Source: Bacillota bacterium (lineage in GTDB: Bacteria; Bacillota; Clostridia; Lachnospirales; CAG-274). Taken from it: a stretch of 64,000 nucleotides of DNA. Under the pieces are notes generated by a model, which was given only the letters and a program-made list of their open reading frames with translations, was not told where the DNA came from and searched no databases. Every line of letters begins with the position of its first letter. Position 1 is the stretch's first letter. Below, in pieces: positions 14,221 to 43,708 of the stretch. The stretch is taken from the NCBI GenBank assembly GCA_017543265.1, contig JAFYGI010000059.1, positions 1 through 64,000 of the forward strand, read 5' to 3'. The translations under genes were made by a program, and so were the position numbers.

Positions 14221-14249
14221 TTGACAAAGTACCGCCGATATTGTAAAAT
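14221..14249 (+). promoter_or_regulatory. Promoter for the thiW leader
   Basis: TTGACA (14221-14226), 17-base spacer, TAAAAT (14244-14249). It lies about 210 bases before thiW, leaving room for a structured leader. A divergent small gene begins at 14152 on the other strand. Confidence 0.8.
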
Positions 14250-14255
14250 ATTCTT

Positions 14256-14433
14256 GTTTGAGGAGGAGCGTCCTGAAACTTTTCGATATTTTGTCGATCA
14301 TTTTACAGCGATGGGAGCCCGTGTTTCGGGTTGAGAGGGTGCTTTGGAGCACCGACCGCAAGTGTTATTTGTGTACCGCAAGCTGTAAAGGTCGACCACG
14401 GCAGGTGTGTACATAAGGTATACGCTTTTTTTA
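14256..14433 (+). promoter_or_regulatory. Structured thiW leader: TPP-riboswitch-like first half and terminator-like hairpin
   Basis: An outer stem is formed by TTTACAGC (14302-14309) and GCTGTAAA (14382-14389). Inside it lie GGGAGCCCG, loop, CGGG, then TTGAGA (14331-14336) and a second stem GGTGCT/AGCACC (14338-14353) followed by GACC. This order resembles the first half of a TPP aptamer (GGGGNGCC..GGCTGAGA..P3a..GACCC). The usual second half (ACCTGATC..GCGTAGGGAA) is not visible. An eight-pair hairpin GTGTGTAC/GTATACGC (14405-14425) with a run of T to 14432 then precedes thiW. Regulation by transcription attenuation is inferred; the ligand is open, with thiamine pyrophosphate the first candidate from context. 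Confidence 0.6.
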
Positions 14434-14458: not shown

Positions 14459-15175
14459 ATGAAAAATCCAAAAGTTTTAAAAATGGCGGTGCTTGCCATG
14501 CTGGTTGCGCTGGGCGTTATAATATCGCCTATCCTGCGTGTGGAGGGTATGTGCCCCATGGCGCATTTTATCAATATTACGGCTGCGGTGCTGCTTGGAC
14601 CGTATTATGCGTTATTATGTGCGTTTTTGATAGGTGTTATCCGTATGGCCGTTATGGGCATACCGCCGCTTGCACTTACGGGCGCGGTGTTCGGCGCGTT
14701 TTTGTCGGGTATGCTTTACCGCGCATCAAAGGGTAAACTTATATTTGCCGTTATCGGTGAGGTAATAGGCACGGGGCTTATCGGCGCGATCATAAGCTAC
14801 CCCGTTATGACGATATTCTGGGGCAGGACAGACCTGACATGGCTTTTTTATGTGCCGAGCTTTATAAGCGGTACGCTTATCGGCGGCAGTATTGCATTTA
14901 TTTTTATAAAACAGCTTATAAAGGCAGGACTGCTTGCCAAATATCAGGCTGCGCTGGGCAGTAAGGTATACGATACACCCAATACCGTGCTTTCGGACAG
15001 CCTTGGCATATGCTTTATAGGCATAATAGCCTATCTTGCGGTGCTTGTGCTGGTGAAAAATCTGCTTAAGCTTACGGGCAGTGCCCTGACGGTATATCCG
15101 CTTGCCGCTTTTCTTATCTTTGCGGTGACGGGTGCGATATATTATTTTGTAAATATGAAAAAAGTAAAGGAATAA
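14459..15175 (+). CDS. thiW: ThiW, ECF transporter S component for thiazole
   Basis: A 238-residue polytopic membrane protein with about six hydrophobic spans. The motif ILRVEGMCPMAHFINITAAVLLGPYYALLCAF is typical of ThiW, the substrate-binding subunit of an energy-coupling-factor transporter thought to import the thiazole moiety of thiamine. The shared ECF energising module (EcfA/EcfT) is not in this window. The start at 14459 follows GAAAGGTGG; a TTG at 14441 would only add six residues. thiM follows three bases after the stop, so uptake and phosphorylation of hydroxyethylthiazole are paired. Confidence 0.9.
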   Translation: MKNPKVLKMAVLAMLVALGVIISPILRVEGMCPMAHFINITAAVLLGPYYALLCAFLIGVIRMAVMGIPPLALTGAVFGAFLSGMLYRASKGKLIFAVIGEVIGTGLIGAIISYPVMTIFWGRTDLTWLFYVPSFISGTLIGGSIAFIFIKQLIKAGLLAKYQAALGSKVYDTPNTVLSDSLGICFIGIIAYLAVLVLVKNLLKLTGSALTVYPLAAFLIFAVTGAIYYFVNMKKVKE

Positions 15176-15178
15176 GTT

Positions 15179-15979
15179 ATGCTTGAAAAAATATTAGGTG
15201 CACGAAGGGCAGTTTGGGATAAAACACCGCTGATACATTGCATTACAAACCCCATATCTATAAATGACTGTGCAAATTATGTGCTGTCGGCGGGTGCAAA
15301 GCCCTTTATGGCGGAGCATCCCGACGAGGTCAGGGATATTACGGCAATGTCGGATGCCCTTGCGCTTAATATTGCCAATATAACGGATGCAAGGCTTTGT
15401 TCTATAGAAATTTCGGCAAAAACCGCGGATAAAAACAATATCCCGTCGGTCATAGATGTTGTCGGCATAGGCGTAAGCAAGCTGAGATATGATTATGTTT
15501 TAAGACTGCTCGATGAAACGCATTTTTCTGCCATAAAGGGCAATATTGCCGAAATAAGAGCCCTGCTTGGGCTTGATACAAGGACTGTCGGCATAGATGT
15601 TGCCGAAAAGACAAGGCTTGAAGATAATGTGCGTATCGTAATGCAGCTTGCAAAAAAATACCGCTGTACCATACTGGCCAGCGGGGAAAACGATATTGTT
15701 TCCGACGGTGAAAATTTGTATGCCGTCTCCAACGGCAGGCGTGAGATGTCGCTTGTTACGGGCACGGGCTGTGTGCTTAATGTGCTTTGTGCGGTGTATA
15801 TGTCGGTCGGCGATGCCCTGACGGGCTGTGTCGCTGCCGCGTCCGTGCTGGGCATAAGCGGCGGCCTTGCCGATGCGTCAAGGGGCATGGCAAGCTACCG
15901 CGCGGATATGCTGGATAAATTTTACACACTTACAGATGAGCGGATAAGCGAAAATATAAGGCTTAAAAAGCTTATTTGA
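15179..15979 (+). CDS. thiM: Hydroxyethylthiazole kinase ThiM
   Basis: A 266-residue ribokinase-like kinase. Early motifs are PLIHCITNPISINDCANYVLSAGAKPFMAEHP and LALNIANI; the late phosphate-binding loop is SLVTGTGCVLNVLCAVY, with the Cys of the GTGC loop that is conserved in ThiM. It phosphorylates 4-methyl-5-(2-hydroxyethyl)thiazole with ATP, a salvage step to thiamine. No thiE or thiD is in the window. The gene's last eight bases overlap the end of a convergent small gene. Confidence 0.94.
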   Translation: MLEKILGARRAVWDKTPLIHCITNPISINDCANYVLSAGAKPFMAEHPDEVRDITAMSDALALNIANITDARLCSIEISAKTADKNNIPSVIDVVGIGVSKLRYDYVLRLLDETHFSAIKGNIAEIRALLGLDTRTVGIDVAEKTRLEDNVRIVMQLAKKYRCTILASGENDIVSDGENLYAVSNGRREMSLVTGTGCVLNVLCAVYMSVGDALTGCVAAASVLGISGGLADASRGMASYRADMLDKFYTLTDERISENIRLKKLI

Positions 15980-24058: not shown

Positions 24059-24089
24059 ACCAATATATTGATATTTGTAAACATAGTGA

Positions 24090-24341
24090 CAAGGAGTAGT
24101 AGCCTGCCGTAGTTTTACAGAGAGCCGCCGTTTGGTGCAAGGCGGTAAACGAAAGTATGTGAACTCGCCTTTGAGTGGCCCGGTTGAACCTTAGTAGATC
24201 GGGACGGATGCCGACCGATAAAGCGGCAGGATATCGGCGTAAGCCTGTATTCGGATGAGTGCACCGCAGCTGCGGTGAAGTAAAGTGGTACCACGGAGTT
24301 ATGCCTTTCGTCTTTATGTCTGACGGAAGGCTTTTATAATT
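24090..24341 (+). promoter_or_regulatory. T-box leader (tRNA-Leu responsive) upstream of leuA
   Basis: The conserved T-box AAAGTGGTACCACGG is at 24282-24296, preceded by an antiterminator-type stem, and a terminator follows: GCCTTTCGTC pairs with GACGGAAGGC (about 24304-24335) and then TTTTAT. Stem I features are seen at 24117-24190, including AGAGAGCC and GGTGCAAGGCGG. The specifier triplet is most likely CTC at 24164-24166 in GTGAACTCGCC, a leucine codon, matching the leucine pathway gene downstream. Uncharged tRNA-Leu should stabilise the antiterminator and switch the gene on. Confidence 0.92.
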
Positions 24342-43598: not shown

Positions 43599-43614
43599 AA
43601 TATCGGAAAATTTC

Positions 43615-43708
43615 ATATGGGAATGATGTTCTCCCACGGGAAACCGAAACCGCTTTTATAGCTGATGACTTCTGCGTTTTTTTACGCAATAGTTGTCGGC
43701 TTTTTTAT
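43615..43708 (+). promoter_or_regulatory. Fluoride (crcB-type) riboswitch with overlapping terminator
   Basis: The order of elements matches the crcB motif: GGGAATGATGTTCTCCC (43619-43635; consensus GGnGATGnnGTTCnCC), AACCGC (43648-43653) and GCTGATGACT (43661-43670; consensus GCTGATGnCTCCT). The last element also forms the left arm of a terminator: GCTGATGACT pairs with AGTTGTCGGC (43691-43700) and GCGT with ACGC, followed by TTTTTT. Fluoride binding should hold the aptamer, prevent the terminator and switch on the antiporter gene. The match is to remembered consensus, not a computed alignment. Confidence 0.8.

Follow-up and report, generated by a model that had tools for sequence, protein, structure and literature searches.

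TPP riboswitches are among the most widespread riboswitch classes. In the leader of thiW-thiM in the window (the whole stretch of DNA analysed, 64,000 nucleotides in length) one binding arm of the TPP aptamer is kept and the other is seemingly replaced by a hairpin from the opposite side. This raises the question whether the leader is a damaged TPP riboswitch or a regulator of its own kind, and, if the latter, which molecule it would sense and in which direction it would control its genes.

The leader extends from 14256 to 14432, between a promoter-like site and thiW (Table 1), and transcription would be expected to start near the first base of the hairpin H1 (14256). It contains GGGAGCCCG, UGUUU and CGGGUUGAGAG, followed by a second hairpin, then by GACCG and finally by a terminator, and its fold is stabler than 200 of 200 shuffles (z -4.68). 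An earlier sequence-only reading had noticed the pattern of the pyrimidine half of a TPP aptamer, which is borne out by GGGAGCCCG..CGGGTTGAGAG..GACCG at 14313-14358, and a terminator-like hairpin at the leader end, which is indeed present (14403-14432). It overlooked H1 at the 5' end, though this hairpin lies inside the stretch that it described. By analogy with the E. coli TPP aptamer structure, UGAGAG (14332-14337) presumably serves as the pocket strand; the bases that hold the pyrimidine in E. coli (G19, G40, G42 and A43) would correspond to letters of GGGA and UGAGA, which are retained here.

Table 1. Features of the thiW-thiM leader and its genes in the window.
Feature	Positions	Strand	Basis
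Promoter-like site, TTGACA-17-TAAAAT	14221-14249	+	11 of 12 consensus matches
H1 hairpin: GUUU/AAAC, G.G mismatch, AGGA/UCCU, loop GGAGCG at 14265-14270	14256-14279	+	Alignment of six family leaders; 107 relatives
P1 5' strand, partner 14382-14390	14301-14309	+	Support against swapped partners over 107 leaders
GAU junction and GGGA, P2 5' side	14310-14316	+	Two G-C pairs followed by G.A and A.G, partner strand 14354-14357
P3, five pairs, loop UGUUU	14317-14331	+	Comparison over relatives
UGAGAG strand, as pyrimidine-pocket strand of TPP aptamers	14332-14337	+	Letters kept in relatives
P3a, five pairs, six-base loop with final A	14338-14353	+	Comparison over relatives
GACCG, P2 3' side	14354-14358	+	Sequence
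Variable hairpin at the place of TPP-aptamer P4/P5	14358-14373	+	Fold; pyrophosphate-arm motif absent
Predicted antiterminator strand, overlaps P1 3' strand, able to pair with 14398-14413	14370-14386	+	Folding model
P1 3' strand	14382-14390	+	Support against swapped partners over 107 leaders
Intrinsic terminator, 10 pairs then T-run	14403-14432	+	Sequence
thiW, S component of thiazole ECF transporter	14459-15175	+	TIGR02359, 132.6 bits (cut-off 84.35)
thiM, hydroxyethylthiazole kinase	15179-15979	+	NF006830, 237.6 bits (cut-off 180)

A scan of the whole window with Rfam at gathering level called no TPP element in the thiW-thiM leader. The window also holds a T-box leader (24077-24318, plus strand, 130.7 bits) and a fluoride riboswitch (43610-43681, plus strand, 48.9 bits). 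At a relaxed level, as the sequence-only reading had proposed, RF00059 was placed on 14301-14397 with 20.3 bits (E 0.07, cut-off 54.3); this is a partial match, and no clear full-length TPP match was found. The first half of the model aligns to the leader, and P4/P5 fails with mostly gaps and mismatches, in keeping with the earlier remark that the pyrophosphate half is not visible. With respect to membership in RF00059, the leader thus has the pyrimidine half (P2, P3 and the UGAGA strand), scores below the gathering cut-off and lacks the P4/P5 arm. The same genome carries a canonical TPP riboswitch elsewhere, before thiC (named by its sequence), with 67.1 bits. Since its first half reads much like the leader, the half present in the leader is probably TPP-derived and no chance likeness.

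Among 48 genomes of the family, thiW is present in eight. The TPP-half pattern was found in the six readable thiW leaders; one genome (G012) has no such leader, and in another (G033) the leader is cut off. A covariance model, R1, built on these six leaders with H1 included, scored at least 50 bits in 32 of the 392 genomes from the order. Below that score matches are numerous, with ordinary TPP elements among them. A pattern scan of species genomes, in which the letters GGAGCGYC, GGGAR and GTGTTYC were fixed, gave at least 117 loci. At least 84 of them (62/80 and 22/37) score 50 bits or more with R1, and the 33 listed loci below this score lie in many cases outside Bacillota and include one cut by a contig end (L126). 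The constancy of the fixed letters in these loci follows from the search pattern itself; of 28 distinct leaders that came from the model without the pattern, 27 have GGAGCG and 27 have GTGTTY. After other loci had been pooled with these, identical cores among 116 records, with a truncated locus (L167) and L185 (the element of L060) left out, were collapsed to 107, so that the element has at least 107 distinct relatives in Bacillota. The hosts include Clostridium, Veillonella, Anaerovibrio, Propionispira, Faecalibacterium, Gemmiger, Roseburia, Floccifex, Faecalibacillus and many other Clostridia. With a second covariance model, R2, built on 65 sequences, 16 of 321 genomes from the class gave matches of at least 65 bits, as did 3 of 329 genomes from a phylum sample, which indicates a patchy distribution. 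The leader looks like a separate vitamin-B1-pathway switch class common to many gut bacteria. Its structure, conservation, gene association and frequent tandem with TPP riboswitches are drawn from the comparison of these sequences.

As the sequence-only reading had suggested, thiW leaders of relatives were compared, and the stems are conserved. GGGA is present in 87 of 87 leaders, its letters being forced by the pattern in the pattern-scan loci; this count refers to the set before 24 further records joined. A conserved GC marks the end of P1, whose partner strand lies downstream of GACCG. Over 107 leaders the mean helix score of P1 is 16.3 against 12.1 (sd 0.23) for swapped partners, and in 38 leaders P1 individually exceeds the 95% control level. 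P3 has five pairs and a loop of nearly fixed sequence (UGUUC in 68 leaders, UGUUU in 38, UAUUC in one). Its first pair, adjoining UGAGA, is A.G in 79 leaders, G.U in 22, G.A in four and G-C in two; the canonical elements gathered for comparison were selected by a regular expression that demanded G and C as the terminal bases of P3, and their G-C pair is therefore no independent evidence. P3a likewise has five pairs, and its loop, mostly of six bases, ends with A in all 107 leaders. The last base of the P3 loop (base 10) covaries with the first base of the P3a loop (C-C 69, U-U 20, U-A 17, U-C 1). This is the strongest corrected signal outside the helices, and the pair flips between close relatives such as L100/L078 and L082/L119; the two loops are therefore probably in contact. 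The alignment A2 of 65 sequences, itself fitted to the model, has 94.6% of its cells paired; cells with two-sided changes number 294, as against a shuffle mean of 79. H1, P3, P3a and P1 are each backed by two-sided changes against shuffles or swapped partners. We thus find a conserved, structured 5' leader with covariation, one of the features expected of a riboswitch.

A decaying, functionless TPP riboswitch would account for the low TPP score and the missing half; given the conservation and covariation across many families, this is scarcely credible. The sequence-only reading had offered a degenerate TPP riboswitch or a variant as explanations. We reject the first on the same grounds and retain the second, since the element recurs across many families, its loops hardly vary and it carries a new domain.

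This new domain is the 5' hairpin. The six family leaders share a block GUUUG-AGGA-GGAGCG-UCCU-GAAAC (14256-14279 in the window) near the expected transcription start. Stem changes within the family are compensatory (GUUU/AAAC to GCUU/AAGC, AGGA/UCCU to AGGG/CCCU) and the loop is constant. Over 107 leaders, pairs 1-4 and 6-10 are formed in 82-100%, mostly with two-sided changes; at pair 5, 67 leaders have a G.G mismatch. The loop reads GGAGCG in 106 leaders and GGAGCA in one (L050). GGAGCGYCCTG has 12 matches in eleven genomes, six of them in these leaders; the other six are without a TPP half and lie in sequence that appears coding-like by eye. We also considered H1 as a permuted P4/P5 arm, with AGG..CCUGA inside, and rejected this because the stem is variable outside the loop.

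H1 might instead be a separate protein- or RNA-binding site that merely stands ahead of a TPP-like leader, as the highly variable length of the H1-to-P1 linker and the putative nature of a contact between H1 and the core would allow. Because both the pattern and R1 include H1, a search for the core by itself, tolerating one mismatch, was run on 80 of the 145 thiW genomes in which R1 does not reach 50 bits. It gave two matches: one (G287) resembles an ordinary TPP half, and the other (G326, R1 47.1 bits) has a hairpin with a GGAGCG loop upstream too. No core without H1 was thus found in these 80 further genomes, in which H1 and core travel together, and the loop changes of the core are absent from the canonical elements compared. 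Both points speak against a separate site, which we regard as very unlikely. A kissing contact between the loops of H1 and P3 (GAGCG with UGUUY, five pairs including G.U) is a weak idea, with which the loop change in L050 is compatible and the P3-loop change to UAUUC in L057 is incompatible.

In the relatives, as in the window, a variable hairpin stands in place of the pyrophosphate arm. A relaxed CCUGA..GUAGG motif was found in 2 of 105 variants (L068, L050); among the canonical-like halves from these loci, 75 of 83 have it. When Rfam was run on 35 loci the variant element itself was called in none. As a separate observation, one TPP riboswitch before thiC (L015 and L017, G031:C52:163111-163466, minus strand) is in two parts, with a pyrimidine half of 26.9 bits, a pyrophosphate half of 32.0 bits and an insertion of about 170 bases between them.

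The direction of control was approached through 14 terminator-type leaders, picked by eye (L038 was added by reading) and with P1 strands set by hand. The P1 3' strand does not overlap the terminator in any of the 14, the gap being 9-72 nt; a strand that includes it or directly precedes it is able to pair with the 5' arm of the terminator. When P2 alone was forced in the folding model, few leaders were clearly separated (L035, L037), and the window leader was not (0.31 against 0.30). With P1 forced too, 11 of 14 leaders showed a freer terminator arm, one (L047) a less free arm and two about the same; in the window leader the values were 0.64 against 0.30. In these 11 leaders the model supports mutually exclusive structures tied to the expression platform. 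The Wilcoxon p of 0.0012 for this comparison makes the evidence look stronger than it is, the sequences being related. The leaders that act on translation gave no direction in the first model (17 lower and 17 higher of 78), and the second model gave 16 lower and 16 higher of 57, with 15 leaders lacking a good enough P1. In two Veillonella leaders the start codon lies within P1, yet the ribosome site is more open. The terminator-type leaders, and the two with the start codon in P1, suggest that the element is an OFF switch.

This direction bears on the idea that the leader responds to HMP, HMP-P or HMP-PP by turning thiazole uptake ON once this partner precursor accumulates, which would make it another such class next to the HMP-PP (thiS motif) riboswitch. 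Such a ligand would fit the retained pyrimidine pocket, and PMC6478431 describes HMP-PP riboswitches as ON switches that precede thiW in tandem with TPP riboswitches; the terminator-type leaders indicate OFF, and we consider this reading unlikely.

A ThiW or ThiM signature was found downstream in 78 of 87 distinct leaders. Among the nine others, one is followed by thiM by reading (L109), three have too little sequence (L100, L114, L052), one is the operon-end element of L184 (L130) and two head a PhnD/PhnC/PhnE-type ABC transporter (L081, L125), leaving L074 and L086 as the remaining two. In L081 the PhnE protein scores above its curated cut-off, the ATPase just below its own (263.6 against 266.1) and the binding protein clearly below its own (92.9 against 112.05). 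This phosphonate-type transporter is a possible importer of a thiamin precursor, to which the element would point. At two further loci (L145, L159) a PhnD-type binding protein comes first after the element, followed by the contig end.

All 32 genomes with a strong match carry thiW, as against 177 of 392 overall. In L185 the element (L185:5266-5357) is internal to a thi operon: thiF-thiG-thiH and a thiE-like gene precede it and thiW-thiM-thiE-thiD follow (names by reading), as if salvage were controlled separately from thiazole synthesis; a weak R1 match also precedes thiF. At L182-L184, a copy stands at the operon end, after thiF-G-H and a thiE-like gene, with no thi gene seen beyond. At least in G265 (L059) and G316 (L055), thiW has its own copy of the element elsewhere. 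Strong ThiG matches (E <1e-20) occur in 9 of the 32 strong-match genomes, and the window genome has only a weak one, so that its organism is probably reliant on imported thiazole; many of the matches behind the overall tally, 313 of 392, are weak and probably unrelated, and some genomes are incomplete. Thiazole auxotrophy is a suggestive rather than a discriminating clue to the ligand.

At the Rfam cut-off, 11 of 35 loci carry a canonical TPP riboswitch on the same strand, at a distance of 65-218 nt upstream. By a two-half TPP motif one lies 67-255 nt upstream in 57 of 106 leaders, a count that misses at least L066, which is a tandem by Rfam. No canonical TPP riboswitch was found upstream of the window leader or of the other family leaders. 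The frequent tandem suggests a second ligand for the variant; it is no proof, since tandems of the same class and ligand are known, and TPP-TPP systems are described in PMC9481103. They would fit a variant that still senses TPP, H1 or the junction having taken over recognition of the pyrophosphate and the tandem giving a steeper or two-level TPP response. The retained pyrimidine half and the OFF direction, which is that of TPP riboswitches, would agree with this. Set against it are the absence of the arm that holds the pyrophosphate, an H1 stem that is variable outside its loop and a gene set much narrower than that of TPP riboswitches, and we find continued TPP sensing rather unlikely.

With moderate confidence, we favour a conserved class of riboswitches that arose from the TPP aptamer, lost P4/P5, gained H1 and turns thiW-thiM OFF, and whose ligand is most likely a molecule of the thiamin pathway other than TPP. 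P1, P2, P3, P3a and the UGAGAG pocket would have been kept, the P4/P5 pyrophosphate arm lost and H1 gained upstream, its fixed GGAGCG loop probably packing against the P3 and P3a loops. Ligand binding would stabilise P1, the stabilised P1 would break the antiterminator, the terminator would form, and thiazole uptake and salvage (thiW-thiM) would be turned OFF. That a metabolite is bound at all, the choice of ligand and the docking of H1 are our inferences.

Our first guess for the ligand is thiamin or TMP, with HET or HET-P close behind. Thiamin or TMP is favoured by a pyrimidine pocket that is kept while the pyrophosphate arm is lost, and the retained pocket makes a pyrimidine-containing ligand more plausible. 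HET or HET-P is favoured by the narrow gene set; that this set consists of thiW/thiM and not of thiamin transporters speaks against thiamin, and the nearly exclusive association makes thiazole sensing possible. We tentatively entertain a HET or HET-P riboswitch, in which the TPP pocket would be reused for the thiazole ring, the pyrophosphate arm dropped and H1 recruited from the 5' side. If this were true, it would supply the counterpart that the TPP and HMP-PP riboswitches lack, and the tandem with TPP would form a NOR-type gate on thiazole uptake. Should the ligand be thiamin, TMP, HET or HET-P, a gap in the bacterial metering of vitamin B1 precursors would be filled, the tandems with TPP riboswitches would be natural two-input gates in gut bacteria, and a change of specificity through exchange of a whole domain could be tested directly.

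Our literature search, with most subscription papers and all bioRxiv preprints outside its reach, found no description of the variant and, within the same scope, no thiazole, HET or HET-P riboswitch. According to unpublished findings cited in PMC9481103 (its reference 82), thiamin or TMP is preferred by some RNAs that are currently counted as TPP riboswitches. As described there, they resemble the variant in being TPP-derived, changed in specificity and considered for tandems; the variants were not called by Rfam in 35 loci, and an overlap between the two groups is possible. The HMP-PP riboswitch (thiS motif) shares with the variant its place before thiW in tandem with TPP riboswitches, as described in PMC6478431 and PMC6429828; according to the same papers its aptamer is embedded in the terminator stem and it is an ON switch. 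The variant differs from it in being TPP-like, with a conserved part that ends at 14358, upstream of the terminator start at 14403. With the TPP riboswitch (RF00059) it has in common P1, P2, P3, P3a, the UGAGAG strand, thiamin genes and the terminator logic. In contrast to RF00059, the variant is without the P4/P5 pyrophosphate arm, carries the extra 5' hairpin H1 and has a P3 of fixed length and loop, the first pair of which is mostly non-Watson-Crick.
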